Source: a virus
Length of the DNA stretch: 64,000 bases
Strand: one strand, 5' to 3'
Virus record (IMG/VR): IMGVR_UViG_3300050016_000168
Location: 1-64,000 of that record
Shown: positions 3,284 through 56,063 of the stretch, one piece after another
How positions within the stretch are numbered: the stretch's first letter is position 1
Layout: each line of letters starts with the position of its first letter
Notes under the pieces: generated by a model
Databases searched by the model: none
What the model saw: the letters and a program-made list of their open reading frames with translations, nothing else
What the model was told of the DNA's origin: nothing
Position numbers and translations under genes: made by a program

Positions 3284-3286
3284 TAT

Positions 3287-5203: not shown

Positions 5204-5206
5204 TAA

Positions 5207-5524
5207 GTGCCGATCTCACCGTGGGTGGTAGGCCAGACGCATCCGACCTGGCAGATCCCCTGGACCAACGAGAGCGGCCCTGTCGACCTCACCGGCGCCA
5301 CTGTCACGCTGTGGATCTTCACTCGAGAAGGAGCCTCGGTTCAGGGCGCCGGCGTCTGCACCGTGATCGGCAACCCGACGCTGGGCATCGTCACCTATGC
5401 GCCAGTAGTGGCTGACAGCTCAAAGGCGGGGAGCTTCTGGGTTGCTCTCAAAGCCGTCTACGGAGACGGCTCTGTGCTCTGGCAGCAGCCGGCAGATTCG
5501 TGGACAATTACGACACTGCCATGA
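5207..5524 (+). CDS. Baseplate/tail protein with BppU-like N-terminal fold
   Basis: 105 residues from GTG 5207. The opening 'GQTHPTWQIPWTNESGPVDL' followed by 'TGATVTLWIF' matches the common phage pattern in which a beta-sandwich domain begins with a description-like 'G(D/Q)T.P.....D..G..VDLTGATV' motif (BppU/DUF2479-like). No C-terminal receptor-binding domain follows, so it is a stand-alone domain. The stop overlaps the next ATG (ATGA). Confidence 0.6.
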   Translation: MPISPWVVGQTHPTWQIPWTNESGPVDLTGATVTLWIFTREGASVQGAGVCTVIGNPTLGIVTYAPVVADSSKAGSFWVALKAVYGDGSVLWQQPADSWTITTLP

Positions 5525-5919
5525 GCACCTATGGAAGCTTCGCTGGCGATGTTTACGCTGGTTCTGTCTACACCGGGCAGATGTTTGCCCTGGCGACCTC
5601 CTTTGCCATCCTCAGTGCCCTTTCTGCCCCGGGGTGGAGCATTGACTCGGTCAGCTACGGGCTGGCTCTGCTGGCTTATCAGTCGGAAGACACCCCAACC
5701 GCAGCGCTCTTCGGGTTCTCCGAGGCACCTGGAGGGGCGCCTTCGCAGTGGCTGGCTGCAACCCTCGGCATTTACGCCGGCCTCCCTAACGTCGCGACGA
5801 TGAACGTCGGCAACGGTGGAGTGTTCGCTCCGGCCCGAGGTGACTACTGGTTCTGGGTCTGGTTGAGCGGTGGAGCTATCAATTCTCCGTATCTGGTCGG
5901 AAGCTTGGCAGCCAGCTGA
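5521..5919 (+). CDS. Small tail-tip protein of unknown function
   Basis: 132 residues from the ATG at 5521, which overlaps the previous stop (ATGA); a start 21 bases upstream exists but would disturb this coupling. The first residues, 'MSTYGSFAGDVYAGSVYTG', resemble the C-terminus of the repeat fibre (3287-5203), suggesting a shared short tail-interaction motif. The remainder is hydrophobic and Gly/Ala-rich with 'DYWFWVWLSGG' near the end. Its stop overlaps the next start as TGATG. Confidence 0.55.
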   Translation: MSTYGSFAGDVYAGSVYTGQMFALATSFAILSALSAPGWSIDSVSYGLALLAYQSEDTPTAALFGFSEAPGGAPSQWLAATLGIYAGLPNVATMNVGNGGVFAPARGDYWFWVWLSGGAINSPYLVGSLAAS

Positions 5920-8273
5920 TGGCACGCCTCAGGTACAACAACCAGCAGGGGATCCTTGGCGCTCAACTGCTCAGCGGCGGAACGACCATCACCTTTCAGA
6001 GTGTCCCAAGCTTCGCCACTCTTGTCGCTCCCGACTACATCGTGCTGGTCCTGGAGCCGGGAACGCTCAATGAGGAGGTTGTCCATCTCACCGCCTACAC
6101 TAGCGGGCAACTCACCGGAACCGTAGCCAGAAGCCAGGAAGGTTCCCCCTCGAGCTTGACTCACGCTTTCTCCACGACTTGGCAGCATGGGCCGACTTCT
6201 AGTGACTTCTGGACTCGCAACGTCACCGTTCAGACCGCTGCCTACACAGCCAAAGATGGCGATGTGGTGCTGGCCAACGCGACCAGCGGCGCGATCGCCC
6301 TCACCCTGCCCGCAGTTGCCGCCAATATCCAAGTCATCGTCAAGAAGACGGACAACTCAGCCAACAAAGTCACGGTATCGCCGCAGTCAGGCACCATCGA
6401 CGGAGCCGCCACTTTCACCATCTGGGGTCAATACCACTCCATCACCTTCGTCTCGGACGGCACCAACTGGTTCGTAACCGAGACGCGGATCATGGACGGC
6501 AACGGCAACGTCGCAGCCGGGTCATTTAGTGCGTCTGTTGGCCCTTATACTCCAGATCCGAACCTCCCCAATGGCGTCGGAACGAGTGCTCTTCTCTATG
6601 ACAAAGGTGCCCATCACACCGACTGGCGAACAGCCTACGGCATCAAGATGGACGGGTTCCCGATTGCGGCCACGATTAACAACGGTTCACCGAACCTCGC
6701 GATCGGCTCCCCCTACTTCACCTCAACCGCCGTTGACGCCGGAAAGCTCGTCAAAATCGTGGGTGCGGGGGTTGCCGCCGCAGACTTCAAGGCTAGGGTA
6801 CTGACCGTCACCGACAGCACCCACTGCGTGCTCGATACTAACGCCAGCACTTCTGTGGTCGCTGCCTTCTCCGTCGTGGGGACCGACAACACAACCGCCG
6901 TGAATAACGCCCTTCTCGACTACAAGAATTGGGCCGATTTATTCACTGGCCCCGGTCTCTGCTTGGTCAATGGAACACTAACCCCTACCTTCGATTTCTT
7001 TGCTGCTGGCAAGGGATGGCTCGGAAGTGGAATAACCCCGGCGCGGATGCGGTCCGCTGGCGATACGGCCAGCGCTGCCTGGAACGGCACGTACATCATG
7101 CAATTGGCTGACGCGGTGCCTTTGGTCAAGACAAACTCCACGGACACTACGATTCAGCGCTGCCGATTTCCGGTTGGCATTTCTTTCGGCTATTTCACGC
7201 CACAAACCAACGCCGCTAGCGTGGGCTGGCTTTGGAGTGGACTTGCGAACACGTCCTACTTTGGATGGACTTGGGGGCCGGTCACCTTTGATAACTGCTA
7301 CACCGTAGTAAGTGTCGACCAGGGCCCCGGTGGGATCAGTGCCTGGAACCAGACCTGTTGGCTAATGGCGGGCGCAACCAAGCACCGGGTTATCGACTTT
7401 CTTTCCACCAACGTCATCAACCGCTTCGACTATCTGGGCATCTTCAACCAAAGCGGGGCCAATGGCCACGGCGCGGTGATCCCGGACGACGCGGCCATAA
7501 ACCTAAGCTCAAACGAACTCTTAATCGAGATGTTCGACATTGAAGGCTGGTACAACCGGATTCTTGTCGCTAGCGGCACCGGAGCGGTGCATATCAAGAC
7601 CGCCCACGTCGAGCACCACGTTTGGACGGGCGCTATTAACTTCGGCAGCGTTTTCGACTTCGCCAACGCGCCTTCAGAGATTGAGGACATCGTCATCTCG
7701 GGCAATTGCGATGCTACCTGTACGGGACCGGTCAACTGCTTCCACTCTCAAGCCGCTGCCCAGGTACTCGTTCGAGGTGTCACCTTCGCCGTGGTGCAGG
7801 CCAATGCGGGAGTCTTTTATGTCGCCTATGCCAGCCTTGGCACCCAGATCACCGTGCAGCAACTCTTCGACATCTTCGCTGGCGGGGCCAATGCCACCAT
7901 CATCGTGCCCTGGGATGCCCCAGCTCTCAACCAGTTTGTCTACAGCCCAGGGCGCGGGGCCAAACAGGCCCCTGCTTTCAACGCTGCCCCGGCCCCCGAC
8001 CCCACCCAGGGAGAAACCTACGAAATGGCCGCCCTCACCGGGGCCGTAAATGTGGCCAATCCAATCAACTCGGTGCGCGGCATGAAGCTGCGAATGTACT
8101 GGAAACAAGACGGGGCAGGAGGTCATGCGGTCGCCTACACAGGAGCCAACTGGCGTTCGGTTGGGATCGCCGCCCAGACGACCACGCTCAGCACCTACAC
8201 CATCGATGAGGCGGAATGCGTCGACGGCACGATCTGGCGTGTCGTGCGTCTTGTTACCGGTCAGACCGTCTAA
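5919..8273 (+). CDS. Large tail spike / receptor-binding protein
   Basis: 784 residues, ATG 5919. The N-terminal 110 residues are a small beta domain with 'EEVVHLTAYTSGQLTGTVAR', a motif common at the attachment end of phage fibres. Residues about 110-200 form a second beta domain ('ALTLPAVAANIQVIVKK'). From about 240 the pattern 'SPYFTSTAVDAGKLV...TDNTTAVNNAL' is typical of the start of a pectate-lyase-like beta-helix spike. No catalytic residues can be assigned by eye. It probably binds or cleaves a host surface glycan. Confidence 0.65.
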   Translation: MARLRYNNQQGILGAQLLSGGTTITFQSVPSFATLVAPDYIVLVLEPGTLNEEVVHLTAYTSGQLTGTVARSQEGSPSSLTHAFSTTWQHGPTSSDFWTRNVTVQTAAYTAKDGDVVLANATSGAIALTLPAVAANIQVIVKKTDNSANKVTVSPQSGTIDGAATFTIWGQYHSITFVSDGTNWFVTETRIMDGNGNVAAGSFSASVGPYTPDPNLPNGVGTSALLYDKGAHHTDWRTAYGIKMDGFPIAATINNGSPNLAIGSPYFTSTAVDAGKLVKIVGAGVAAADFKARVLTVTDSTHCVLDTNASTSVVAAFSVVGTDNTTAVNNALLDYKNWADLFTGPGLCLVNGTLTPTFDFFAAGKGWLGSGITPARMRSAGDTASAAWNGTYIMQLADAVPLVKTNSTDTTIQRCRFPVGISFGYFTPQTNAASVGWLWSGLANTSYFGWTWGPVTFDNCYTVVSVDQGPGGISAWNQTCWLMAGATKHRVIDFLSTNVINRFDYLGIFNQSGANGHGAVIPDDAAINLSSNELLIEMFDIEGWYNRILVASGTGAVHIKTAHVEHHVWTGAINFGSVFDFANAPSEIEDIVISGNCDATCTGPVNCFHSQAAAQVLVRGVTFAVVQANAGVFYVAYASLGTQITVQQLFDIFAGGANATIIVPWDAPALNQFVYSPGRGAKQAPAFNAAPAPDPTQGETYEMAALTGAVNVANPINSVRGMKLRMYWKQDGAGGHAVAYTGANWRSVGIAAQTTTLSTYTIDEAECVDGTIWRVVRLVTGQTV

Positions 8274-8393
8274 TGAAAACTGCACTCTAATTGACCACAT
8301 ACTGCGACCCGAATTTCACACATAAGCCAACTAGCCTCCAGCAACAACCGACGGACAAGTAGACAATTACGGCAATTTCCTAAGGAGGGATTG
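8274..8393 (+). other. Gap before lysis genes, possible weak promoter
   Basis: 120 bases without a gene between spike and peptidase. TTGACC near 8291 has a TTTCAC hexamer about 17 bases downstream, a weak promoter match. A strong ribosome site (AAGGAGGG, about 8382-8389) precedes the ATG at 8394. Confidence 0.3.
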
Positions 8394-9263
8394 ATGAGCA
8401 ACGAAGAGAAGACAGACAGGAAGACCCCCGACACCGACCTCGAGAAGGCCAAGGCGGCTCAAGCCAAGAAGGAGCAGGCGGCGCTCGAGAAGCTGGAGAA
8501 CGAGCCCATCCCAGGCAAGCGCTTGGGCCGGTTGCCGACTCCGCCGGCGATGCTCAAGAAGAACCTTCAGATGGCCCGCTACCTGCCATCAATCCTTCCG
8601 GCCGTACCAGCGCTGCCGATCGACGTGACCGACGGTGTTCACGACTGGCCTATGTATCTCAACGACCATCTGGGAGACTGCGCCTGCGCGGCTCCTGCGC
8701 ACATGGAGGAGATCTTCGCGGCCGACACCGGCGTGATGCGGATCCCGACCGACGCTGACGTCCTGGCGCTCTACGAGCTTCAGGGCTACAACCCCGCCGA
8801 CCCATCAACCGACCAGGGCTCATCGATGGGGAACGTGCTGATCGACTGGCGCACCCAGTGGTCGGCCTCCGGCGTCTACGCCTACTGCCAGGTCGACCAG
8901 ACCAACGAAGACCATCTCAAGCTCGCAATCTGGCTCTTCCGCGGCCTCTACATCGGCATCGCTCTGCCTCTCACAGCGCAGGGCCAGCAGATCTGGGACG
9001 TCGTGCCAGACGTTCCCGGCCGCAACGAGCCCGGATCGTGGGGCGGCCACGCGGTCAACGTGGTGTCCATCAACTCGGATGAGTCACGCGACGTCATCAC
9101 CTGGGGCCAGCGCCTCAAGATGACCAAGGCGTTTTGGGACGTTTATGTTGACGAGGTCTACTGCGTGGTTACGAAAGATCTGCAATCCAGTGCTAAGCTG
9201 GCCGCCAATGGGCTGGATGTAGATCAGCTCGAGGCAGACATGGCGGAAATCGGTAGCGCGTAA
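8394..9263 (+). CDS. Papain-like cysteine peptidase, possible lysis enzyme
   Basis: 289 residues; the ATG at 8394 sits just after AAGGAGGG. The N-terminal 45 residues are highly charged. The core shows 'MYLNDHLGDCACAAPAH', a cysteine-nucleophile helix, and 'GGHAVNVVSIN', a histidine strand, followed by 'ITWGQ'. This is the order expected of papain-fold peptidases found in actinophages. It lies immediately before holin-like genes, which suggests a role in lysis or peptidoglycan-peptide cleavage. The substrate is unknown, and it could instead act on proteins. Confidence 0.6.
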   Translation: MSNEEKTDRKTPDTDLEKAKAAQAKKEQAALEKLENEPIPGKRLGRLPTPPAMLKKNLQMARYLPSILPAVPALPIDVTDGVHDWPMYLNDHLGDCACAAPAHMEEIFAADTGVMRIPTDADVLALYELQGYNPADPSTDQGSSMGNVLIDWRTQWSASGVYAYCQVDQTNEDHLKLAIWLFRGLYIGIALPLTAQGQQIWDVVPDVPGRNEPGSWGGHAVNVVSINSDESRDVITWGQRLKMTKAFWDVYVDEVYCVVTKDLQSSAKLAANGLDVDQLEADMAEIGSA

Positions 9264-9273
9264 AGGAGGACTC

Positions 9274-9717
9274 ATGAAAGTCTCGGATATCAACGGACAG
9301 CTCGTCTCGCTGGTGACAGCGGCAATCTCTGCAGTGGTCGCCTTCCTGACGGCGTTCCACGTCTTGCACCTGACCGCGGCTGAGAGCAATGCTCTCCTGC
9401 CCGTGGCCATAGGTGCTATCGGCATCGGCGTCTATGCCTACGGCCTGATCCACAGCTGGGCGACCGCGAGCTACAGCCAAGCTCAGGTGACCACGCTACT
9501 CACCGCTTTCGTTGCCGCCCTCATGGCATTGGCCTCGGCTTTCGGCCTGTTCAACTTCGATGCTGAGCAGCAAGCGGCAGTGCTCGGAGTCACCGGCGGT
9601 ATGGCTTTCATCGGTGGCATCCTCTTCAGCTATCTCCACGCCGCACACCAAGTGGCCTTGGTCAAACTGCAGATCTCCAAGCAACAGGCATCATTCGCAC
9701 AACCAAGGAGAGCGTAG
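9274..9717 (+). CDS. Holin-like membrane protein
   Basis: 147 residues with AAAGGAGG just upstream. Four hydrophobic segments are visible at about residues 10-32, 42-60, 70-92 and 102-125, followed by a short charged tail ending 'QPRRA'. Holins make timed holes in the inner membrane. Assignment rests on membrane topology, size and its place after the peptidase gene, not on a family match. Confidence 0.6.
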   Translation: MKVSDINGQLVSLVTAAISAVVAFLTAFHVLHLTAAESNALLPVAIGAIGIGVYAYGLIHSWATASYSQAQVTTLLTAFVAALMALASAFGLFNFDAEQQAAVLGVTGGMAFIGGILFSYLHAAHQVALVKLQISKQQASFAQPRRA

Positions 9718-9849
9718 ATGGGCTTCTTCGAGGCCAACGCTGGTGTGTTCTTCGCTGCCGTCCTGATCGTCGGTGCCCTCGGTGGAGCGGTCGGCCGCAA
9801 GGTCGAAGCCTGGCTCGAGAGTTGGCGTGAGAACCGCGTTCGTGGATGA
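9718..9849 (+). CDS. 43-residue single-pass membrane protein
   Basis: An ATG follows directly after the holin stop (TAG ATG), with AAGGAGAG upstream. The protein has a short N-terminus, one hydrophobic helix (about residues 9-26) and a positively charged tail ('RKVEAWLESWRENRVRG'). Size, topology and position suit an antiholin or second holin. It overlaps the next reading frame by 8 bases. Confidence 0.6.
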   Translation: MGFFEANAGVFFAAVLIVGALGGAVGRKVEAWLESWRENRVRG

Positions 9850-10414
9850 AGGCCTTGTAACTGCTCCTGGCGTATATCGCTGGGCGGTCAAGACCGTCAG
9901 TGACGACGCAGCCGACGCGTTGAAATCGGCGGTCCCGACCGATGCCAAGATCGCCGACCTGATCGCCCTTCCCGCGCCCCATGTCACGCTCGGCTTGGCC
10001 CGTCAGCCGGGAGCCGAAAGTTCAGTCTTCCAGCTCACAGCAACACTGGTCGCATTCAAGCCGGAAGCAGACCAGGACTATCACCTTGTCATCCACGACG
10101 ACGCGGGAAACTCGATGATCGTTGAGATTCCGGATCCGTCGATCCTGACCCCCTCTTGCCGCTTCGCGGCTGAGATCACCGCCGCGCGCCAAGCTTTTGA
10201 CTCCCAGTTCGGGCTCCAGATGAAGCAGCTCCAGGCAGCCATGGCGCTGATGACGGCCCAACCGGGCCAGAAGCCCCCGCCGCTGATGATCACGAACGTG
10301 AACGTGCCCGTCCGAGTGATCGGCGTCGGCTACTTCGATGAGATCCACGGCCAGACCGGTGTGGCTCCTAATGGCCTCGAGCTGCACCCTATCCTGAGCA
10401 TCGAGTTTCCCTGA
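9842..10414 (+). CDS. Conserved protein of a bacterial family, lysis-cassette neighbour
   Basis: 190 residues from GTG 9842. The N-terminal 'RWAVKTVSDDAA' and the C-terminal 'VRVIGVGYFDEIHGQTGVAP' followed by 'LELHPILSIEF' match a conserved bacterial family whose C-terminus reads 'VTGVGFFDFxHGQTGVAPNxIELHP'. Known members are mostly bacterial and often secreted; no enzymatic role is established that I know of. No signal peptide is visible here. It closes the rightward late block before a terminator. Confidence 0.65.
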   Translation: MDEGLVTAPGVYRWAVKTVSDDAADALKSAVPTDAKIADLIALPAPHVTLGLARQPGAESSVFQLTATLVAFKPEADQDYHLVIHDDAGNSMIVEIPDPSILTPSCRFAAEITAARQAFDSQFGLQMKQLQAAMALMTAQPGQKPPPLMITNVNVPVRVIGVGYFDEIHGQTGVAPNGLELHPILSIEFP

Positions 10415-11612: not shown

Positions 11613-11854
11613 CGTCTGCCGATCATGCGCGGTCTGAAGAAGGCGACTGGACTGTCTGAGTTTTTACATTCTTGGCAATCTGGCTGACGGCAGAGGTGGA
11701 AGTCGACACACTCGCAGCCCGGAGCTTCGCAGACCATGTAGCTTGGATCGATGTCCGGCCGATCACCCTCAGCTCCGTGCTCGAGGAGCGTGTGGCCACA
11801 ACGGACACACTTAGCGTCGGTGATCGACGACAGACCGATCACTATGGGTGCCAT
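11606..11854 (-). CDS. Cysteine-rich zinc-binding protein
   Basis: 82 residues with nine cysteines and several histidines: C-x2-C-x5-H near the start ('CVRCGHTLLEH'), then 'CEAPGCECVDFHLC' and 'CQEC'. Likely binds one or two zinc ions. It overlaps the end of the polymerase gene by 13 bases, so it is probably translated with it. Function unknown. Confidence 0.6.
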   Translation of the reverse strand: MAPIVIGLSSITDAKCVRCGHTLLEHGAEGDRPDIDPSYMVCEAPGCECVDFHLCRQPDCQECKNSDSPVAFFRPRMIGRRW

Positions 11855-14340
11855 TTTTCAGCTTGCCCCCACTTCTTGCCGATCTCGATCTCAACGTCGA
11901 AGGGGACGTCCGTCTTGAGTAGAGTGGAGCTGGTCATGACCTGGTAGATCTGATGCAGCACCGGCTCGAGGATATCCTCACGGACCTCAAAGTTGATCGA
12001 GTCGTGGATTGGAAAGAGAACGTATGCCCCCTTCGGTAGCTGGTCGTGAAGCTTGACCATAGCGTCTAGGCAGATGTCCGACGCGGTGCCCTGAATAGGA
12101 AAGTTCACAGCCTCTCTGCCGACACCGTTGGCGGTACCAGGTGGGATGAACGGCCAGCGCCGGCGACGTCCGAGCGGGGACTCGATGTACTGCTGCTTGA
12201 GAGCCAGTACCTTGGTCGCATCGATCCAGGCCTTGAGCTTGGGGAACCCGTTGAGGAAGCGGTAGAGAAACAACTCGGCGTCGTCGACCGACCACCACTC
12301 GGCGTCTGGATCCTTGTATTCCAGCTCGGCACCGGAGACCAGCGACTGTGCGCTGCGGCCATAGATGATGCCGAAGTCGACATGCTTGGCCATCACGCGT
12401 TCTGACTTGGTGACCTTGTCAGCTGCTTTCTTGAAGATCATCGAAGCGACTTCGGTGTGAATGTCGCGGCCGTTGCGGAAAACATCTTTCATGTCTTCGT
12501 CGTCGGTGATCACCGCAGCTACACGCAGCTCCAGCTGGGAGTAGTCAGCGGCCACCCACACGTACCCAGGCGGAACGGTGAAAGCGTTGCGAATCTGAGG
12601 TCCCATGAGGAGAGGAATGTTCTGCAGGTTCGGCGAAGCCGATGAGAGCCTTCCAGTCGACGTACCGAGCAGTCGGAAGTCGGAGCGGATACGCCCGTCC
12701 GGCCCGAGCTTCTCGAGGATCCCGTCGATGTAAGTGGCCAGCACCTTCTTGAGCAGGCGCAGCTCGACGATGTCGGTCAGACCCTGCTTAATTTTCGGGT
12801 CAGTGGCTCTCTGCGCCATCCCGAAGAGGATGTCCTTGGCGGTGGTGTCGGCCGGCATCTCCATAGCTCGCTTGCCAGAGAGGATGGGTTTGGGCTGCCG
12901 CCAGTGCGTATAGATGAGCTTGCTGAGCTGCGGCTGCGAGTTGGGGTTGAAGTCTTTCATCCCGTGCTCAAGCGCCATCGCTTGCAGCGAGGCATGCTTG
13001 GACTCGATGGAGGCCCGCGTGGTGCCGCCCAGCTCCTCGAGGTATGGTCGATCGATCTTCACCCCGTGCAGCTCAATCTCAGCCAGCGCATAGGTCGCCG
13101 GCATGAGCAGGCTGCGAAGCAGTGACTCGAGCTTGGGTGACTCCTCGGTCATGTCGCAGGCCTGGTCACGTTTCAGCCGTGAGGTGTAGCCGAGGTCTTT
13201 GGCCTGATAGGCGTAGAGCGACTGCAGTCGGACAGCGCCCCACGATCCAGGGGTGAAGTCGAAGTCGTAGTCCTCAGCGTCGTAGCGGATCCGCGCCTGG
13301 GCCTTCAAGCCGTGAGCCTTGTACTTGCCGCTGATCGGACGCTCGTCAAGCAGGTAGTGCTGGAGCATGCCGTCGATCGCGCGCGGTCGGATGCGCTCGT
13401 TGAAGTAGACGTCAAGGAACTGGATGTCGAACTTGGCATTCCAGAGCGCGAACTCACCAGCGTAGGTCGTAAGAAATTTCCTCAAGGCAACCTTCATGAG
13501 CGGGACTCGGAGCAGGAACGGGTTGATGATCACGCCAGCGTCGTCGTTGCCGATGCCGACCGAGATGATGCGGTCGACGATCGGGTCCGGACCAGAGGTC
13601 TCGAGGTCGATAGTGAGGTCGGGGAGCTTCTCGATCGCATTCAGACTGCGGACGGCGATGCCCAACGTGGCCGGAACCACGACGCTCACTGCCATGTCAG
13701 GCATCGGCGCTGAGTACTTGAACCACTTCTCAATGTCGTCGCCGAAGTCGCGGAAGTAATCGCCATCGCGGAGCACGGCGGCCGGGTGGTAGGTGGCGAC
13801 CGTGTAGACCATGCGGCCACCCCATTCGGTCCAGACCCCGCGGCCGTGCCAGCGTGTGATCGGCGCTGCTTTGTCGACTCTCAGGACGGCAGTTAAAGCA
13901 ACGCCGCCGACGGCGAGGATCTTGGTCGGCGCGACCAGCGCCAACTCCTCTTCCAGCCGTTGGCGGCAGCACTTGATCTGCGCGATCCCCGGCGTCTTGT
14001 TGCCTGGCGGATGGCAGAGCACCGCGTTGGTGTAGTAGACGTCGTCAGGTTCGATGCCTGCGCTGCGGAGGGCTACTCTCAGGAGGCGACCAGCCTGGCC
14101 GACGAAGGGCTGCTTGTGTGAGACTTCGGTGTTGCCTGGCGCCTCACCGACCACGACGTAGCCGTCGCCCGGACCGAAGCCTTGAACGGTCGGGCTCGAC
14201 TGCAGCGGACACTTCTCACACCTGGTTGGTAGGAGTGATCTGCTCAGCTTCCAGTGCCTCCATGATGGCCACGGATACGGCAGCGCAGTGAAGCGCCTCC
14301 TTAGCTCGAGCCTCCGGTGTGTGACGTTCCGGGATGTCAT
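11842..14340 (-). CDS. polA: Uracil-DNA glycosylase / DNA polymerase I fusion
   Basis: Residues about 38-195 are a family-4 uracil-DNA glycosylase: cysteines C41, C44, C109 and C124/125 for the 4Fe-4S cluster, 'GEAPG' (65-69) and 'HPA' (185-187). Residues about 240-420 are a 3'-5' exonuclease with D-x-E ('IDLETSG'), 'NAKFD' and Y-x3-D ('YQAKD'). The rest is family A polymerase: motif A 'DYSQLELR' (D599), motif B 'KHVDFGIIYG', motif C 'HDSINFEV' (D780; HDS where HDE is usual). The only standard start upstream of the first cysteine is ATG 14340, which forces a 125-base overlap with the MazG-like gene. Confidence 0.9.
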   Translation of the reverse strand: MTSRNVTHRRLELRRRFTALPYPWPSWRHWKLSRSLLPTRCEKCPLQSSPTVQGFGPGDGYVVVGEAPGNTEVSHKQPFVGQAGRLLRVALRSAGIEPDDVYYTNAVLCHPPGNKTPGIAQIKCCRQRLEEELALVAPTKILAVGGVALTAVLRVDKAAPITRWHGRGVWTEWGGRMVYTVATYHPAAVLRDGDYFRDFGDDIEKWFKYSAPMPDMAVSVVVPATLGIAVRSLNAIEKLPDLTIDLETSGPDPIVDRIISVGIGNDDAGVIINPFLLRVPLMKVALRKFLTTYAGEFALWNAKFDIQFLDVYFNERIRPRAIDGMLQHYLLDERPISGKYKAHGLKAQARIRYDAEDYDFDFTPGSWGAVRLQSLYAYQAKDLGYTSRLKRDQACDMTEESPKLESLLRSLLMPATYALAEIELHGVKIDRPYLEELGGTTRASIESKHASLQAMALEHGMKDFNPNSQPQLSKLIYTHWRQPKPILSGKRAMEMPADTTAKDILFGMAQRATDPKIKQGLTDIVELRLLKKVLATYIDGILEKLGPDGRIRSDFRLLGTSTGRLSSASPNLQNIPLLMGPQIRNAFTVPPGYVWVAADYSQLELRVAAVITDDEDMKDVFRNGRDIHTEVASMIFKKAADKVTKSERVMAKHVDFGIIYGRSAQSLVSGAELEYKDPDAEWWSVDDAELFLYRFLNGFPKLKAWIDATKVLALKQQYIESPLGRRRRWPFIPPGTANGVGREAVNFPIQGTASDICLDAMVKLHDQLPKGAYVLFPIHDSINFEVREDILEPVLHQIYQVMTSSTLLKTDVPFDVEIEIGKKWGQAEKWHP

Positions 14341-45142: not shown

Positions 45143-46792
45143 ATGATCGACCTCGCAAACAGCTTCACCCAGCAGCCGGATCCGCTGAGCATCGCGGCCG
45201 ACATCATGGAGAAGGGTTCGCAGTCCACGGTCGAGGAGTTCTGCAACGTCGAGCTGCAGGAGGAGCTGTACTCCAAGCAGCGCGAGATCACGTCATCGAT
45301 TCTGGTCAATCGGCGCACCGCGGTGAAGAGTTGTCACGCTGCCGGCAAGAGCTACCTCGCCGCGCGCACCGCCGCCTGGTGGATCAAATTTCATCGCCCC
45401 GGCGAGGCCTTCGTGGTCTCCACCGCGCCGTCCAACGACCAGGTCAAGGGTGTTCTCTGGCGAGAGATCAACCGCGTCCACAAGAAGGGACATCTGGCTG
45501 GCCGGGTCAACCAGACAGAGTGGTGGATCGACGACGAGCTGGTCGCCTTCGGACGCAAGCCGCAGGACCAAGATCCCGGCTCCTTCCAGGGCATCCACGC
45601 CCGTTACGTGCTGGTAATAATTGACGAAGCGTGCTGGGTACCTAAAGATCTCTGGATGGCTGCCGGCTCCTTGGCCGCCAACGAGAACTCACGCATTCTG
45701 GCCATCGGCAACCCCGACGACCCAGGCTCTTACTTCGCGGAAGTCTGCAAGCCGGGAACCGGCTGGCACGTAATTCGGATCAGCTACCGGGACACACCAA
45801 ACTTCTCAGACGAACCTGTGGCTCCACTACTCAAGGAGCTGCTCATCTCCGAGATCTACGTCGATGAGATGCGTCATGAGGTCGGCGAGCAGGGAGCGCC
45901 ATTCATCTCCAAGTGCGAAGGTGAGTTCCCGGTCGAGGCCGAAGATGCGGTGGTCTCAGTTTCCAAGCTGATGAGCTGCATGCAGCCCGAGCAGTCGCAC
46001 ACCGCAAAGGAGCTTTCTCCTCACGAGTTGGGATGGGACGTTGGCGCCGGCGGTGACAAGAGTGTTGTCCGAGAACGTATGGGGATCAAAGTTGGCCGCG
46101 TCTGGTATCCCAAAGGTGGCGCCGACACCATGCAGCAAGTCGGCAACGTCGTCAACATCATCAATCAGACCAAGGCCACCGCGATTAAGGTGGACACCAT
46201 CGGCATCGGCCACGGAGCCGCCGACCGGCTCGATGAACTGCGCCGTGAGGGCAAGCACAACGCCAAGGTGGTGCGCGTCAACGTCTCCGAGAAGTCGACC
46301 AAGCCGCTCAAGTACATGCGCCTTCGAGACGAGATCTGGTGGACGATCGGACATCAGATGATCAACGACGGGGTGCTCGACCTGTACGGCCTGGACGATC
46401 CCACAGTGGCGCAACTACTCTCGCCAAAGTATCAGCTCGACTCCGGCGGACGGATCAACATCGAGGACAAGAAGGACACCAAGGCTCGGCTGGGCCGCTC
46501 CCCCGACGACGCCGACGCGCTGCTGCTCGCCTTCTACCACGGTTTCGGTCAGGGTCAGGCCTTTCAAGAGGCCTGGCGCAAGCAGACCGCGAAGGCGCTT
46601 GGGGCCCACCCCAACCAGACCCCAGCCGCCAGCGATAATCTATCGATCTCGCACCCGTCTCCCGTCTTCAGCCTCATGAAGAGGCCCCGCCGCGTTCCAC
46701 AGCAGATCAGCACCAGAACCTCCTGCGAGCATCGCTTTCGCGGTCCGGCTGTTGGAGATACGTGCGTTTTCTGCGGTACGGGCAGACAATGA
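45143..46792 (+). CDS. terL: Terminase large subunit
   Basis: 549 residues. ATPase: Walker A 'SCHAAGKSYLAA' (G68-K69-S70) and Walker B 'VLVIIDEA' (D161-E162), then 'LAIGNPDDPGS'. RNase H-like nuclease: 'GWDVGAGGDKS', 'AIKVDTIGIG' and 'RSPDDADALLLA' supply the acidic residues. The C-terminus adds a zinc-like tail ('CEHRFRGPAVGDTCVFCG'), an uncommon extension. It cuts and pumps phage DNA into proheads through the portal. Confidence 0.9.
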   Translation: MIDLANSFTQQPDPLSIAADIMEKGSQSTVEEFCNVELQEELYSKQREITSSILVNRRTAVKSCHAAGKSYLAARTAAWWIKFHRPGEAFVVSTAPSNDQVKGVLWREINRVHKKGHLAGRVNQTEWWIDDELVAFGRKPQDQDPGSFQGIHARYVLVIIDEACWVPKDLWMAAGSLAANENSRILAIGNPDDPGSYFAEVCKPGTGWHVIRISYRDTPNFSDEPVAPLLKELLISEIYVDEMRHEVGEQGAPFISKCEGEFPVEAEDAVVSVSKLMSCMQPEQSHTAKELSPHELGWDVGAGGDKSVVRERMGIKVGRVWYPKGGADTMQQVGNVVNIINQTKATAIKVDTIGIGHGAADRLDELRREGKHNAKVVRVNVSEKSTKPLKYMRLRDEIWWTIGHQMINDGVLDLYGLDDPTVAQLLSPKYQLDSGGRINIEDKKDTKARLGRSPDDADALLLAFYHGFGQGQAFQEAWRKQTAKALGAHPNQTPAASDNLSISHPSPVFSLMKRPRRVPQQISTRTSCEHRFRGPAVGDTCVFCGTGRQ

Positions 46793-46801
46793 GCGTCGTA
46801 C

Positions 46802-47119
46802 GTGGGCGCCAAGTGCTTCATGGTCGAGAGGATCATGGATTGCTGGTTAGAAGGTGGAGGTCAGCGTGTCGGTGCGATGGTCTGGGCTTGGCATGAGTAC
46901 GAGGCGTACGACACTCAACACCGGCCGTTTCCCCACCTCATGGTCATGACTCCAGCAGGTCTTGTCTGTATGGATTGCCCAGAGACGGATCCTCCTCACA
47001 GCTATTGGGTGCGGGACGGCGAGCTGCCAAATGTGACCGTCTCCCCGTCGCTCAACGTCAACGAAGGTAACCCGGGAGCGTGGCACGGCTGGCTGATTGG
47101 GGGAGAATTGACACCGTAG
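46802..47119 (+). CDS. 105-residue protein between terminase and portal
   Basis: GTG 46802. Trp- and Pro-rich, with 'GLVCMDCPETDPPHSYW' (C-x2-C) and 'NPGAWHGWLIGG'. The stop overlaps the portal GTG (TAGTG). Possibly zinc-binding; unknown role. Confidence 0.55.
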   Translation: MGAKCFMVERIMDCWLEGGGQRVGAMVWAWHEYEAYDTQHRPFPHLMVMTPAGLVCMDCPETDPPHSYWVRDGELPNVTVSPSLNVNEGNPGAWHGWLIGGELTP

Positions 47120-50100
47120 TGGGCACCACGGTTAAAGACCTGAAGCGAAAGTCGAAGACGATCAAGTCCACTCCCGTGCTCCGTGCGACCAGAACTCCAC
47201 TGGCTCTGCGGACACCCGAGCGGCCAATCCCGGTCTCAATTGTCCGCCAGCCTTACCAGCGCCGGCGCAAGTACAACGCCGAGTACATGGTCAAGGCGGT
47301 CAAGGTTGCACTGCGACCTGACGAGCTGATCCACATACCTCAGAGAGACCGCGAGATGGTCAAGGCGGCAGCTGACAAGATCTCACGCGGAGCTTCAATC
47401 GCATCTCTTGGTGGCCGGGGGGGAGGTCCAAGCGGACGCACACCGGGGCCACCGATGCCGGTCTCGGTGACTCAACTGGCGCAGGAGGCAGCGCGCGCGT
47501 TGCGTCCGTCCTCTGGCACCACACCAGCTGACATCGAGGTCGCACTCCGTAGACAGGGAATTGACTGGGTTGAGCCATTCGCTCCCGGTCGACCTCTCAC
47601 GCCCTACTACGGATACAGCCGACGAATGCGGCAAATGGACTACAAGGTCGGTCGAAACATCACAACCGACACCAGGCCAGATCGTTTGCCATTCTCATTG
47701 CTCAAACAGCTCAACGAGGGCTACGACATCGCGTCGATCTGCATCCGCCACATCATCAGCGACATGCGGGCCATGAAGCTCGGCTTCGGCCCCATGGACG
47801 ATTACGACGGTGAAGTCTCGAAGGACATCCTGGAAGCAAAAAAGTTCCTCCGTAAACCTGACGGCAACCGGCCATTCCCGATCTGGCTGGCGCAGTGGAT
47901 GATGGACATTCTCCGCTATGACGCCGGATGTCTTTATCGAGAGCGCAATGCCGCCGGCAAGCTGGTCGCCCTCAAGGTCGTCGAAGGCACCATCGTTGCT
48001 CCGATCGTCGACTACTACGGTGATCGGCCAATCCCACCAGCGCCATTCCTGCAGCAGTTCGTGAATGGCATTCCGTGGGACTGGGCGACCACTGACGACG
48101 TCATCTACGAACCGCACTGGCCGCTGCCCGAGAGTCCATATGGCGTTGCACCGGCGGAGACCATCGTGCTCAATGCCAACACCGACGTCCGCTTGCAGCT
48201 CTTCTTCCTCCAATTCTTCACCGCTGGGGTGGTTCCAGAGATGCTGCTTGAGGCGCCAGCAGAGATGACTGACCCGGACGCGATCTCCGAGCTGCAGGAG
48301 GACTGGGACAACTTCTACGAATCCAACCAGACCGGACGTCATGGGGCCCACTGGGTGCCTGCGGGGACCAAACCCTGGCCCTACAAACCGACGGTGTTCG
48401 ATCCCAACTTGTCCAAGTACGTGATGATGCGGTCGGTTGCCGCCTTCGGTCTCATGCCTCAGGATCTGGGATTCACCGAGTGCTATTCCGAGGATACCGA
48501 GTGCTTGACCGCCTCCGGTTGGAGGCAGTACCACGAGCTGAGCCGGGATGATCAGATCGCCACCTACAACCCTGAGACCCAACAGATCGAGTACCACTGT
48601 CCGATCTCGATCCACATTCATCAGCACAAGGGTGAGATGGTCCGTTTCAAGAGTCGCAGTGTCGATGTCATGGTTACGCCGCACCACCGGATGTGGGCTT
48701 GGAAGCAGACCCAGGACAGGACGCCACAGAACCGTCCCTGGGACTTCATCGAAGCTCAGGATTTGGCTTCCGCCTCGAGATTCGGATTCGTCAACATCAC
48801 CGAAGGACGCGACCATCAGCTCTGCCACGACCACGTTTCGCGTGAGACGTATGACGGAGTGGTATGGTGCCTCGAAGTTCCGCATCACCTGTTCGTAACC
48901 CGGCGCAATGGAGTAATCGCAGTCCACGGCAACACTGTCAACCGCTCGACTGCAGACGCTTTGGCAGATACACAGTTCAGGATTTCCACGCTGCCCAACA
49001 CCGAGATCTACGAAGCGATCATCAACATGGTCATTCAGGACGACCTCGGTCTGCCCGTGGAGGTCCATTTCGACACCGGGCGGGAGAAGAAGGATCGACT
49101 GATGGAGGCTCAGGCCCACCAGATCTATGTCGCTATGGGCTCGGAGTCTCCGGACGAGGTGCGGGATGAAATCCTCGGTCTGCCTGTGGACAACGACAAC
49201 CGGCTCCCCCGCTTCTACGACTCAGACCGATTGGGTCCTGTGCCCCTGGCCTGGATCATGGCCGTCTCTGGAACCATCGATCCGAGCACCCTGTCTCCGT
49301 TCGGGGTGATCCCGCCATTGCCATTCGTCCCCATCATCGGCCAGAAGGAGCCATCCGGTCCGGCGGAGCCAGACGGATCTCCGTCCAGCGGAAGCTCTAC
49401 ACCAAAGAAACCAAAGCCGAAAGCGGCAGCAGCTGCAACCCCCACAGCACCGCTGCCCGTCCTCCCCACCGGTACCAAAATCCCGCCCGAGACGGCGGTC
49501 AGTCAGCCTGGCCAACACGCTAAGGATTCGCACGAGCAGGTGGGCGACATGCACACCGATCCGGAGGGGCGAATTGATCAAGACGGTCATGCCGATGTGC
49601 CGACAGTCAAGCTCCGTGGTGCCGCTGCGCGCAACGAGTACCGCGTCGACGCCGGCCAATTTAATGCTCCTCCAGCCGGTACGACCGAAGGATCTCGAGG
49701 CCCGCGGCTGCCGCAGGGATCATCGGCACCGAAGCGGACATCTCCTCCACGGCGCTCTGCGAATGGCAACGCTCTGAAGGAAGGCGGAATCACATCTGGG
49801 ACAGCGCTGGCAGGCATCGATGGCCCAAGCACCGATGACGAAGACGATGACGTAATCCTGCTGTCGCAGGAAGCTCGTAAGGAACTGCTCCGCTGGCGTG
49901 ATGTCGCGCGCAAGAAGGCTAAGGACAAGAAGAAGCAGCGCTACTTCGAGTCCGGCATTATCCCTCAGGAAGTCTCCACCCGGCTGCACATGGCGTTGGC
50001 CCAAGCGCAGAACCGAGAGGATGTGGACAAGGTCTTCGAGGCCGCCATGGATCCTCGGCCGACAAACGCCAAGCCGGAGCCACTAGACGTACATAAGATC

Positions 50101-50550
50101 AACGGTGTGGCCATACGCGCTGGCAATACCGGCCGCGTCCTCATGCTCCAGCGCGCGATGGTGCAAGGCGATCCCGCAGCTGGCCAGTGGGAGTTCCCCG
50201 GTGGACACAAGGGCTACGAAGAGACCGACCAGGAAGCGGGCTATCGAGAGTGGCAGGAGGAGACCGGCATCTTCTTTCCCAAGAAGGCGCAGCTCTTCTC
50301 TAGGTGGGAAAGCTTCAACGGACGCTACATCGGTTGGGTATACGAAGTGCCGACCGAGGATGATGTTCACATCGACGGTCGTGAGGATGTGAAGAACCCG
50401 GACGGCGACACGTTTGAAGCGGTGGCGTGGTTCGATCCGCGCGACCTCGCCAACCACCCGGGGATCCGTCCTGAGTTGAAAGCGGACATCGCTGCGGTAC
50501 AGTCAGCATTGACCTGGCCGCGGAAGAAGAATGAACTGGGACAGGAGTAA
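47119..50550 (+). CDS. Portal protein with internal mini-intein and C-terminal Nudix domain
   Basis: 1143 residues from GTG 47119, which overlaps the preceding stop. Portal extein features: 'RPIPPAPFLQ', 'TDDVIYEPHWP' and, once the intein is removed, 'LGFTE' joined to 'TVNRSTADALADTQFRI', a typical siphovirus portal segment. Residues 455-605 are the intein. Residues about 820-960 are low-complexity and then helical. Residues about 985-1130 are a Nudix hydrolase with a perfect box G-x5-E-x7-R-E-W-Q-E-E-T-G-I at about 1029-1051. The mature portal would be about 992 residues. Confidence 0.88.
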   Translation: MGTTVKDLKRKSKTIKSTPVLRATRTPLALRTPERPIPVSIVRQPYQRRRKYNAEYMVKAVKVALRPDELIHIPQRDREMVKAAADKISRGASIASLGGRGGGPSGRTPGPPMPVSVTQLAQEAARALRPSSGTTPADIEVALRRQGIDWVEPFAPGRPLTPYYGYSRRMRQMDYKVGRNITTDTRPDRLPFSLLKQLNEGYDIASICIRHIISDMRAMKLGFGPMDDYDGEVSKDILEAKKFLRKPDGNRPFPIWLAQWMMDILRYDAGCLYRERNAAGKLVALKVVEGTIVAPIVDYYGDRPIPPAPFLQQFVNGIPWDWATTDDVIYEPHWPLPESPYGVAPAETIVLNANTDVRLQLFFLQFFTAGVVPEMLLEAPAEMTDPDAISELQEDWDNFYESNQTGRHGAHWVPAGTKPWPYKPTVFDPNLSKYVMMRSVAAFGLMPQDLGFTECYSEDTECLTASGWRQYHELSRDDQIATYNPETQQIEYHCPISIHIHQHKGEMVRFKSRSVDVMVTPHHRMWAWKQTQDRTPQNRPWDFIEAQDLASASRFGFVNITEGRDHQLCHDHVSRETYDGVVWCLEVPHHLFVTRRNGVIAVHGNTVNRSTADALADTQFRISTLPNTEIYEAIINMVIQDDLGLPVEVHFDTGREKKDRLMEAQAHQIYVAMGSESPDEVRDEILGLPVDNDNRLPRFYDSDRLGPVPLAWIMAVSGTIDPSTLSPFGVIPPLPFVPIIGQKEPSGPAEPDGSPSSGSSTPKKPKPKAAAAATPTAPLPVLPTGTKIPPETAVSQPGQHAKDSHEQVGDMHTDPEGRIDQDGHADVPTVKLRGAAARNEYRVDAGQFNAPPAGTTEGSRGPRLPQGSSAPKRTSPPRRSANGNALKEGGITSGTALAGIDGPSTDDEDDDVILLSQEARKELLRWRDVARKKAKDKKKQRYFESGIIPQEVSTRLHMALAQAQNREDVDKVFEAAMDPRPTNAKPEPLDVHKINGVAIRAGNTGRVLMLQRAMVQGDPAAGQWEFPGGHKGYEETDQEAGYREWQEETGIFFPKKAQLFSRWESFNGRYIGWVYEVPTEDDVHIDGREDVKNPDGDTFEAVAWFDPRDLANHPGIRPELKADIAAVQSALTWPRKKNELGQE
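48481..48933 (+). other. Mini-intein in the portal protein
   Basis: The 151-residue insert begins at a cysteine ('CYSEDTECLTASGW', block A) and has a block B 'VTPHHRM' and a block F 'VWCLEVPHHLFV'. It ends '...NGVIAVHGN' before Thr (+1 nucleophile). Length and motifs fit a Hint domain without homing endonuclease. The penultimate residue is Gly instead of the usual His. Confidence 0.88.
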
Positions 50551-50793: not shown

Positions 50794-51299
50794 TTCAGAT
50801 CTACGTTCCCTGGACGAAGATTGCTCGTGAGACGGAAGAAGCTCTTCGCGGAGTAGTCCACACCAGAGTTCCGATGCGGAGTCCAAGCGACTACTCAAGC
50901 CTTTTTCGAGCTTTGGTCGATCTTGGTAATGACTTTGCAATCATCGAGCACGACATAGCCATCCATCGGGACGTCATGCCGCAGCTCGAAAGCTGTCTAA
51001 ACCCATGGTGCGTGTTTCCATTTTCGGGCGGCCACGAACTGTTCTACGAAGGCCTCGGCTGCGCTCGGTTCAGAGTCAAATCGTTGCTCTCGATCATCCC
51101 CGACTTCAGTGCCAGGATCGGAGACTGTCGGTGGAGCGACCTCGATACAAGAGTAGGAACGATCCTCAAGGAGGCAGGTGTTCAATTTCACACCCACTTG
51201 CCTCCAGTGCTTCATTTCCATCACTGGGAGGTGCCATCCGGACATCTGCCGGGATGTAAATGTCCGACCTGTACGTGGGTCAGAGGTGTGCATCCTTAG
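50793..51299 (+). CDS. Glycosyltransferase-like protein with non-standard start
   Basis: The frame is protein-like from the codon at 50793 (ATT, overlapping the previous TGA) or CTG 50790, while the first ATG is only at 50874. 'IQIYVPWTKIARETEEAL', 'FAIIEHDIAIH', 'CVFPFSGGHELFYEGLGCARF' and 'CRWSDLDTRVG' resemble small GT-A-type phage proteins with an acidic 'EHD' site. The C-terminus has 'CKCPTCTW'. It could modify virion or host glycans. Both start and family are uncertain. Confidence 0.5.
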   Translation: MQIYVPWTKIARETEEALRGVVHTRVPMRSPSDYSSLFRALVDLGNDFAIIEHDIAIHRDVMPQLESCLNPWCVFPFSGGHELFYEGLGCARFRVKSLLSIIPDFSARIGDCRWSDLDTRVGTILKEAGVQFHTHLPPVLHFHHWEVPSGHLPGCKCPTCTWVRGVHP

Positions 51300-51747: not shown

Positions 51748-52245
51748 TCAGAATCTCTTGAGATATCTGAGGGCTGCTTTGAGCAACACAATGGAGTCAT
51801 GAAGTTGTCCGATTCCTGCGTTGCAATTGGAACAAAGCAACCCCCGACGCTTTCCAGTCAAATGATCGTGGTCAACAGCAAGAAGTCTTCCGTTAGGAGG
51901 GTTCAAGCAAATCGCACAGACGCCGTCCTGGCGGTCCAGCATCGCTTCGTATTCTTCGACAGTCATGTCGAATTTCCGTTTCAACTCTCCCTTCCGGAAT
52001 ACGGCCGGACTTCGCTTTCGATAGTCGCGGTAGTACTGACGGGAGTGTTCAAGCTGCTCCGATGTACGATTTCGTTTGTACTCTCGGTGGCGCGCGTTGT
52101 CGCACAAGCGACAGTAAGCTCCGTGTCCCGTACCACCACGTTCTGGTTGAGGCTTTCCAAATTCCGACAGTGGCTTCCTCTTGCCGCACCTAGGACAGCG
52201 TTTATTTTTTGCTTCCAGGTCGGTGGCCGTACGTTGGAAGACCAT
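51748..52245 (-). CDS. Endo VII-type HNH endonuclease, probable mobile gene
   Basis: 165 residues, the only nuclease on the minus strand in the head region. N-terminal zinc pair 'CPRCGKRKPLSEFG' and 'YCRLCDNARHREYK', then 'GVCAICLNPPNGRLLAVDHD', 'HLTGKRRGLLCSNCNAGIG' and 'DSIVLLKAALRYL'. This is the recombination endonuclease VII-like family, often free-standing homing endonucleases. It lies within the start of the XkdF-like gene. Confidence 0.85.
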   Translation of the reverse strand: MVFQRTATDLEAKNKRCPRCGKRKPLSEFGKPQPERGGTGHGAYCRLCDNARHREYKRNRTSEQLEHSRQYYRDYRKRSPAVFRKGELKRKFDMTVEEYEAMLDRQDGVCAICLNPPNGRLLAVDHDHLTGKRRGLLCSNCNAGIGQLHDSIVLLKAALRYLKRF

Positions 52246-52264: not shown

Positions 52265-52924
52265 TTGTGTTGGACTTGCGGCTGTATGATTCCCTCCGAT
52301 CCTCATGGTGATCTCAGAAACATCATTACTATGCAACTCGATGCGGCGACCAAGACGGATGCCTTCCAGTCGAAGAACCACGACCAGGGAGTGCCGCAGG
52401 CAGTAGCCAACATTACCAAGACGCTCTCGCTTTACCGCGGGCGCTCCGCCGGCGTGTACCCATTCAACGCCATGAAGGAGTTGGGTGCGGAAGTTGCTCT
52501 CAAGGCGGTGGCTGAACAGTCGGAGCGGCAGTACACTCTCGCTCTCGCTTACCCAGCCAATCGAGCCGATCGTTCTGTGGCGGCTGACGGATTCCGCGAC
52601 TTCGCTCCCGCCGACGTGCTCGAAAATGCGGCTTGGGGCTATCTCAAGAAGGGGGCGAGAGTTGGTCTTCTCCACCGCAAGGGAACTGAGGGTAGTGGTG
52701 TAGTTGTCGAGTCGTACATCTATCGCGGACCGGACTGGGAAGTTGTAACGCCCAGCGGCGAAAAGACGATGATCAAGTCCGGCGATTGGCTACTCGGTAC
52801 TATTTGGGACAACCTAGCATGGAGAGCAATCAAGTCGGGAAAGCTGACAGGAATGTCCCCACAGGCTAAAGTCAGACGTCGTATTCCCAGTGCAGAAGCT
52901 CTGGCTGGGTTGAGGAGAGACTGA
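52265..52924 (+). CDS. XkdF-like putative prohead protease
   Basis: 219 residues from TTG 52265. The N-terminal 'MCWTCGCMIPSDPHGDLRNI' is an actinophage motif. The C-terminal half has 'GVVVESYIYRGPDWEVV' and 'IKSGDWLLGTIWDNLAWRAI' then 'GKLTGMSPQAKV', as in XkdF-type proteins. XkdF-like domains are thought to be maturation peptidases. The start codon looks rebuilt after insertion of the Endo VII gene, and the ribosome site is weak (GAGGA 12 bases up). Confidence 0.7.
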   Translation: MCWTCGCMIPSDPHGDLRNIITMQLDAATKTDAFQSKNHDQGVPQAVANITKTLSLYRGRSAGVYPFNAMKELGAEVALKAVAEQSERQYTLALAYPANRADRSVAADGFRDFAPADVLENAAWGYLKKGARVGLLHRKGTEGSGVVVESYIYRGPDWEVVTPSGEKTMIKSGDWLLGTIWDNLAWRAIKSGKLTGMSPQAKVRRRIPSAEALAGLRRD

Positions 52925-54545: not shown

Positions 54546-56063
54546 ATGTCTTGGGGAGCCGATACCCTCGGCGTCTCGAACGACACGTTCGAGATGATCA
54601 AGGCGGCGACCAGCGGCATCGTGACCGGTACCGATCTTGCCGGCATCGATCTTCAGCCGCTCGTTTCGCTTGTCCCGACCGACACTCCGTTCTTCAACTC
54701 GACGCCGCGCGTCGGGGCGAAGCAGGGCGCGCTGTTCGCCTATTGGCAGGCGCTGCTCAACGTCAACAACCAGCAGGTTGACGTCGGCGTTCCGTTCGAC
54801 CAGGCAGCTGGACTGGTTCAGATCGCGAACCAGTACATCTTCTCGCCGTTCGTCCCGCTCGGCCTGGGCGGCACCGTCACGCAGGACGCTCTTGCTCAGG
54901 CGCAGGGCTACGCCGACGCGCTGGCAGTGGCCACGCTCGAGACGATCAAGCAGGTGCTGATCGGCCTCGACATCCACCAGATCGGAGCGCAGAGCTTCGC
55001 TCTGCCCACCGTCGGGACCATCTCGCTGACCACGTCAACGGCAGGGGGCTCGGTCGCCACGGCGACCACCCTGTTCATCAAGTGCGCAGCTCGTTCCAGC
55101 GTGAACTACTACCGTGGTGGTTCAAACGTAGCTTCGGCTGAGGCGAGCCTCGTCGACGGCGCAGGCAGCACCAACTCCTGGACGGCGACCGTTCCAGCTG
55201 TCAGGGGAGCTGTCGCCTACGATTGGTACGTCTCCAGCACGACCGGCACGGAGAAGTACTACACGACCACAACCGTCAACACCGTGGTGATCACCTCGAT
55301 CCCCGGTTCGACCCAGAACGTTCCCAGCCTCCCCGGCATCTTCAACGCCGGTCTGGCCGGTCCGGCATCGGTGCCGGTGGCAGACGTGTCCTTCCAGACG
55401 TACTGGCAGAACGGTCTGATCGCCTCCATCCTGGGCGATTTCTCGGCCCAGCCGGACGCGCTCGGCGTCTCCGGTGCGGTGGCCAACCTGGTCACCCCGG
55501 GCTCCGGAACCACACAGGGCGCGTACTTCAAGAGCCTCGACGGAGGCAAGCTCCACGTCGCCGGCGCGGCGCTGCTTGAGCTGGACGCGATGAACCAGGC
55601 CATTTACGACACCTACCAGCTGACGGCGACACGTTATCTGATGGGTTCGCAGTCGATCAACGATATCGCCAACGCGGTCTTGAACAACCCGCAGGCGGTG
55701 ACCTGGCTGGTGCCAACGGACTCGGACGGTCGCGCCCGGGTCGTCGCAGGTGGCGCCGTGGCGCTCTACCTGAACAAGACCGTGAACGGCAAGCCGATCA
55801 CGATCGAACTGCAGCCGCACTTGGCCCCAGGGACCATCGTTGCGGTCGTCGACGAGGTGCCATTCCCGGGCGCTAACATCGACCAAGTGTTGTCAGTCGA
55901 AACCCAATACGACTTCTGGCGCTTCGACTACGGCGCAAACCGTGCTGCGGGTGCCACCGGCGGCCCCCGGTACGACTTCGAGATTCGCTCCAAGCAGGCG
56001 TTCCGGAATAAAGCTGCTCCTGTGATGGGGATTATCGCGAACATCGCCCCGGGCACCTCGTAG
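54546..56063 (+). CDS. Major capsid protein with inserted Ig-like domain
   Basis: 505 residues after AAGGAGAAAATAGAC. The N-terminal E-loop region ('GALFAYWQALLNVNNQQ') and C-terminal 'FWRFDYGANRAAGATGG' then 'YDFEIRSKQAF' fit HK97-type actinophage capsid proteins. Residues about 157-255 (Ser/Thr/Gly-rich, 'VAYDWYVSSTTGTEKYY') form an immunoglobulin/fibronectin-like insertion, probably exposed on the capsid surface. Confidence 0.85.
   Translation: MSWGADTLGVSNDTFEMIKAATSGIVTGTDLAGIDLQPLVSLVPTDTPFFNSTPRVGAKQGALFAYWQALLNVNNQQVDVGVPFDQAAGLVQIANQYIFSPFVPLGLGGTVTQDALAQAQGYADALAVATLETIKQVLIGLDIHQIGAQSFALPTVGTISLTTSTAGGSVATATTLFIKCAARSSVNYYRGGSNVASAEASLVDGAGSTNSWTATVPAVRGAVAYDWYVSSTTGTEKYYTTTTVNTVVITSIPGSTQNVPSLPGIFNAGLAGPASVPVADVSFQTYWQNGLIASILGDFSAQPDALGVSGAVANLVTPGSGTTQGAYFKSLDGGKLHVAGAALLELDAMNQAIYDTYQLTATRYLMGSQSINDIANAVLNNPQAVTWLVPTDSDGRARVVAGGAVALYLNKTVNGKPITIELQPHLAPGTIVAVVDEVPFPGANIDQVLSVETQYDFWRFDYGANRAAGATGGPRYDFEIRSKQAFRNKAAPVMGIIANIAPGTS

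Follow-up and report, generated by a model that had tools for sequence, protein, structure and literature searches.

What is a nucleotide-hydrolysing enzyme doing at the end of a phage portal protein? A portal is built of twelve subunits and turns its C-terminal side toward the capsid interior, and the inside of the prohead is the common place of the portal, MuF proteins and the prohead protease. In the soil phage record IMGVR_UViG_3300050016_000168, a portal and a Nudix hydrolase are encoded by one intact gene within the 64,000-nucleotide stretch that we analysed (the window). A sequence-only reading of this DNA had recognized the fusion and stated that no standard role for Nudix activity in a portal was known. 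Both the fusion and the integrity of the Nudix domain have held up, but the statement about its role has not, for it overlooks two annotated isolates (Burkholderia phage Bcep781 gp17 and Arthrobacter phage Mufasa8 gp3) and the work of Iyer et al. 2022 (PMC9503650), in the accessible text of which Nudix domains fused to MuF, portal and capsid-processing serine peptidase proteins are called T4 NudE-like and proposed to be packaged and injected to counter ADPr-type signals. Portal-Nudix fusions as a kind are thus already published, and what is added here is evidence that the Nudix domain has been exchanged repeatedly, as a cassette, for a 2H phosphoesterase. The 2H phosphoesterases belong to another class of enzymes, one whose targets are likewise nucleotide phosphate bonds.

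The gene and its neighbours comprise the following features.

45143..46792, + strand: terminase large subunit, the upstream neighbour of the portal (Pfam, PHROGs)
47080..50550, + strand: portal-Nudix fusion gene, an unbroken reading frame of 1156 aa counted from the first GTG
47530..48480, + strand: N-terminal part of the portal core, residues 151-467 (Pfam Phage_portal; phrog_2662, portal protein)
48481..48933, + strand: mini-intein of 151 aa, residues 468-618, inserted into the portal after GFTE and before TVNRS
48934..49299, + strand: C-terminal part of the portal core, residues 619-740, aligned to L002 and other portals
49300..49854, + strand: disordered Pro/Ala/Ser-rich linker, residues ~741-925 (pLDDT mostly <35 in the full-length model, in which ~195 residues, about 730-925, lack structure)
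49855..50049, + strand: helical module, residues ~926-990, with one like it beside the Nudix or 2H cargo of relatives
50083..50511, + strand: Nudix hydrolase domain, residues ~1002-1144 (Pfam NUDIX, AlphaFold2, Foldseek)
50203..50271, + strand: Nudix box, residues 1042-1064 (pattern match)
52265..52924, + strand: XkdF-like prohead serine protease (Peptidase_S78_2), downstream of the portal (Pfam, PHROGs)
54546..56063, + strand: putative major capsid protein by gene position; matches phrog_13692, a family of unknown function

Is this truly one protein, and is its first part a portal? The HK97-type Phage_portal domain (PF04860) matches residues 221-442 at 7e-12 in Pfam, a span that widens to about 184-467 when PHROGs matches are added, and NUDIX (PF00293) matches residues 1013-1127 of the same frame at 1e-13. 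The portal assignment rests on this profile together with the position of the gene between those for the terminase and for the protease and capsid. Downstream, between the prohead protease and the probable major capsid protein (a function assigned to the latter by gene order), a lysine-rich scaffold-like protein is also encoded, so that the terminase upstream and the protease, scaffold-like and capsid genes downstream make this an ordinary late head operon. The sequence-only reading had placed the Nudix region at 50060-50550; the domain itself occupies about 50083-50511, and the box that it located at residues 1029-1051 is the one that we number 1042-1064, since its 1143-aa count starts 13 codons later. 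The true start codon may indeed lie up to ~20 codons further in, because the nearest relative, L002 (IMGVR_UViG_3300021178_000002), aligns only from about residue 17. That relative has a portal 90% identical to ours and the same Nudix fusion; over the N-terminal portal core the two are 91% identical, with a dN/dS of 0.066. A break in the frame before the Nudix region was looked for and is absent. A chimeric assembly is likewise rejected, given the open frame, the occurrence of the fusion in independent contigs and the purifying selection described below.

Several other features of the window deserve mention in their own right. An Endonuclease VII-like gene (51748-52245, - strand) lies within the late head operon on the opposite strand. 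In PHROG families annotated as DNA methyltransferase and as RNA ligase, the C-terminal part is similar to the XkdF-like protease, a likeness that suggests further fusions between enzymes and head proteins. Directly downstream of two portal-Nudix genes are related small proteins of unassigned function (50874-51299 in the window, 7652-8128 in L003); the former was considered as a general partner of the portal and rejected, as homologues are present in only 3 surveyed loci. Far from the head genes, a single reading frame (11842-14340, - strand) joins a DNA polymerase A to an N-terminal uracil-DNA glycosylase superfamily domain.

The portal core is interrupted by an element that is absent from the sequence-only reading. 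Residues 468-618 begin with C468, end with H616-G617-N618, are followed by T619 and are exactly missing from L002, and residues 466-566 match phrog_85, which we read as an intein-bearing family. On these sequence features the element is a mini-intein, predicted to splice. Intein signatures are also found at other portal sites in L074.

Beyond the portal core, the full-length AlphaFold2 model (pTM 0.37, and informative about nothing but the linker disorder and the separate folding of the Nudix domain) predicts an unstructured stretch, then the helical module, then an independently folded Nudix domain. Modelled in isolation with 62 relatives, the Nudix domain reaches a pLDDT of 93.8, and the top Foldseek matches to that model are all Nudix-fold enzymes, the best being of MutT, MutT2 and RppH type; the earlier description of a full-length Nudix-like domain behind a linker is thereby borne out. 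The segment GHKGYEETDQEAGYREWQEETGI (residues 1042-1064) satisfies the Nudix box G-x5-E-x7-R-E-U-x-E-E-x-G-U, the R-E-U-x-E-E core of which is intact in 116 of 119 non-redundant Nudix domains of relatives. Compared with L002, the Nudix part has a dN/dS of 0.14 (portal core, 0.07), which indicates that the domain is maintained by purifying selection. As modelled, the domain folds confidently as a MutT/RppH-like Nudix enzyme, with hydrolysis of an NDP-X pyrophosphate bond as its predicted activity.

Which pyrophosphate bond is a harder question. By profile and structure the closest families are MutT, MutT2, RppH and CTP pyrophosphohydrolase, with every profile match below its family cut-off. Against the curated NCBIfam cut-offs, membership of the MutT, RppH or NudG subfamilies was not found: the best score was 38 bits, to PRK08999 (cut-off 245), and the MutT profile gave 33 bits against a cut-off of 97.9. 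We accordingly rejected an assignment of substrate from family profiles, all of the matches being sub-threshold. In sequence and fold the domain is nearer to MutT/RppH enzymes acting on (d)NTPs or RNA than to ADP-ribose pyrophosphatases, again below the family cut-offs, so that the domain itself does not indicate a signalling substrate. In a tree with long branches and few columns, the NudE of phage VR7 groups with the domains of Bcep781 and PdC23 (SH-aLRT 92), outside the Nudix clade of the window.

If the domain alone does not name its target, its distribution tells which proteins carry it. A tblastn search of a phage collection found the order portal-Nudix-MuF in the Arthrobacter phages Sonali and Mufasa8, and a Nudix domain of the same clade in the MuF protein of Pseudanabaena phage Pam4. 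In Streptomyces phage Gilgamesh the Nudix domain is fused to an S78 prohead protease encoded directly before the capsid gene, and Streptomyces prophage members of the clade are likewise fused to S78 proteases. With a profile built from seven Nudix domains, matches were obtained in 314 stretches of IMG/VR, and 13 strong loci came up among actinobacterial genomes. More than 100 non-redundant domains of the clade were gathered, nearly all within head proteins; among 40 non-redundant complete reading frames, all 40 contain NUDIX, at least 39 a portal domain and 22 a MuF domain. The domain is thus attached to three kinds of head-interior protein: portal, MuF and S78 protease. It is not encoded separately in all relatives, the outcome that would have told against the sequence-only reading: nearly all of those surveyed have it fused to the portal, the exceptions being L218, L226, L228 and L230, where Nudix and MuF share a gene of their own directly behind the portal.

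In L226 and L228 that gene, which directly follows an unfused portal gene, unites Nudix, 2H and MuF domains. Intervening DNA splits the Nudix coding region at two recurrent positions (in L209, L244, L246 and L248, and in L212 and L240), with an HNH-like reading frame in that of L240; an Rfam intron search of the interrupted genes of L209, L244, L248, L212 and L240 gave no match. Elsewhere, L080 contains a huge polyvalent-type reading frame (2424-10391) with GNAT, Nudix, ParB-like and weak Arr-like domains.

Further evidence comes from relatives that have something else in the place of the Nudix domain. In these portals the cargo site holds Nudix, a 2H phosphoesterase, both or nothing. When relatives were chosen by portal sequence alone (the best 80 contigs per scan, near-copies included), 45 portals carried Nudix, 23 did not and 9 were lost at contig ends; in five of the 23 Nudix-less portals the cargo site is taken by a 2H phosphoesterase, which follows the helical module and precedes any MuF domain that is present. 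Two 2H-bearing portals, L192 and L205, have an added ADP-ribosyltransferase domain after MuF. Paired comparisons of Nudix and 2H portals locate the exchange: overall, the flanks are 48-88% identical and the cargoes ~22-31%, which is background similarity only. Between L303 and L227, identity is 68-78% in the segments that lead to the junction, drops to 29% in the cargo and recovers to 51% beyond it. Between L178 and L180, which have a second Nudix in common, it is 75% for the first 571 residues, 48-70% on the way to the junction, 22% in the cargo and 57% after it, and between L253 and L199 it falls from 88% for the first 419 residues to about 57-60% close before the junction and to 24% in the cargo.

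To explain the 2H label, a tree of 104 portals requires 12 changes, at least 10 of which are forced by well-supported branches. Sampling was partly by way of the cargo itself, so that cargo counts are not frequencies; the number of 2H changes on the tree is independent of this. In a second portal clade, with its cargo near the C-terminus, Nudix and 2H alternate too. There the tree label 'none' is unreliable, because 21 of the 41 tails first scored as empty, mostly in that clade, carry a further, different Nudix subfamily. The 2H cargoes keep both HxT/S motifs in 66 of 66 non-redundant cases. In the portal clade of the window, then, the Nudix site has repeatedly been replaced by a 2H phosphoesterase. 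The anti-CBASS enzyme Acb1 belongs to the 2H superfamily, and one 2H cargo has a weak Acb1 match in Pfam; the cargoes on portals are known as 2H, not as Acb1. Acb1 itself is made by phages as a protein of its own, from gene 57B in T4 (PMC10419184). Among named phages, none was found to carry the same 2H cargo on its portal; the only match was a distant one in Arthrobacter phage Kovu.

How does this compare with known systems? Sonali gp3 and Mufasa8 gp3 belong to the same portal clade (38-40% identical) and the same Nudix clade (42-46%) as the window protein, yet their order is portal-Nudix-helical module-MuF, whereas the window has portal-helical module-Nudix with an intein and no detectable MuF. 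Bcep781 gp17 resembles it in being a portal with a C-terminal Nudix domain, and is so annotated, but its portal is of the Phage_portal_3 family and its Nudix domain of another lineage; judged from these sequences it is probably an independent fusion. The fusions of Iyer et al. share with ours a Nudix domain on a head protein and the proposal of head packaging, but are described in the accessible text as T4 NudE-like, while the window domain is nearer MutT/RppH and falls apart from NudE in a weakly resolved tree (PMC9503650). Polyvalent proteins and MuF-linked effectors are likewise head proteins with exchangeable enzymes; in the accessible portions of these reports, 2H is found fused to MuF or portal (same group, 2017; PMC5512222) and the MuF-type protein gp7 of SPP1 binds the portal inside the head (PMC5576092). 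In contrast to what those portions describe, the anchor here is the portal, and exchange can be traced on the portal tree. The openly licensed literature, as far as its text is accessible, yielded no tree-based account of repeated Nudix/2H exchange on portals.

We put at roughly 0.5 the probability that the domain travels in the head as enzymatic cargo and, early in infection, destroys a nucleotide-type molecule of the host, with substrate, release and delivery all putative. The portal would serve as the anchor, so that with its C-terminal side toward the capsid interior about twelve enzyme copies would be enclosed per virion. The prohead protease may cut the linker during head maturation to free the enzyme (the XkdF-like protease is a candidate cutter of head proteins), which would then enter the cell with the DNA, or else work from the head. 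Its target would be some compound with a pyrophosphate bond (for instance a defence signal, an ADP-ribose derivative, an alarmone or capped RNA), hydrolysed before phage genes are expressed. The conserved box, purifying selection, Nudix fold, head-protein fusions, 2H exchange and disordered tether favour head-borne cargo, and we count the ADP-ribosyltransferases of L192 and L205 on the same side, together with the like role proposed by Iyer et al. in 2017 and 2022. As long as the domain is covalently attached to the portal it cannot follow the DNA and would stay outside the cell, so that it would first have to be cut free, which makes release and delivery the weakest step; the Nudix domains of S78-protease fusions might, moreover, be lost from the head in maturation, which counts against it. 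The sequence-only reading had likewise imagined an enzyme carried in the head whose targets at entry would be nucleotides, NAD-like molecules or capped RNA. This matches the published prediction, in the accessible text of PMC9503650, and is partly supported, being strengthened by the repeated exchange with a 2H phosphoesterase. That a pyrophosphatase and a phosphodiesterase have repeatedly taken each other's place at a single site is in keeping with an arms race in which the nucleotide signals of the host keep changing. More tentatively, the portal tail may be a dedicated cassette site at which nucleotide-cleaving enzymes (Nudix, 2H and possibly others) are swapped to match the host immune signal and delivered from the virion before phage gene expression.

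The main rival, which we consider unlikely, is that the late-expressed protein acts in the cytosol of the producing cell before or during head assembly, the virion copies being incidental. It would dispense with release from the portal, it suits a gene within the late head operon, and burst-scale synthesis would supply far more enzyme than one virion delivers; for such work a free enzyme would suffice, however, as in T4-like phages where NudE is a separate gene, and its lasting attachment to head proteins of three kinds argues that location in the head matters. Slightly less probable is a head-borne MutT/RppH-like enzyme that removes 5' pyrophosphate from host RNA or clears damaged or foreign dNTPs early in infection. 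The nearest structures and families speak for it, but all the matches lie far below the family cut-offs, and it leaves the 2H exchange unexplained, a 2H enzyme not being expected to clean dNTPs. We regard as improbable a role in assembly, either through activity inside the prohead while DNA is packaged (on nucleotides at the motor, for example) or by serving close to the portal as a folded plug or spacer: the shared prohead location, and fusion to a protease normally lost from mature heads, would agree with it, but close relatives lack the domain or have the unrelated 2H fold instead, and the tether is long and disordered. That the domain is dead and passively inherited, or an artefact of metagenome assembly, has next to no likelihood and is already contradicted: nothing but the metagenomic origin of the window speaks for it, and the domain recurs in independent contigs, two cultured phages and prophages, with a dN/dS of 0.14 and an intact box.

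If the domain is indeed head-borne cargo, these phages offer a natural series of portals that differ in the enzyme while their structural part hardly changes, so that the type of host signal destroyed by each enzyme would be testable with cultured Arthrobacter phages and purified domains. They would also provide phage proteins able to act against immunity before any phage transcription, and a pointer to undescribed nucleotide signals in actinobacterial defence.
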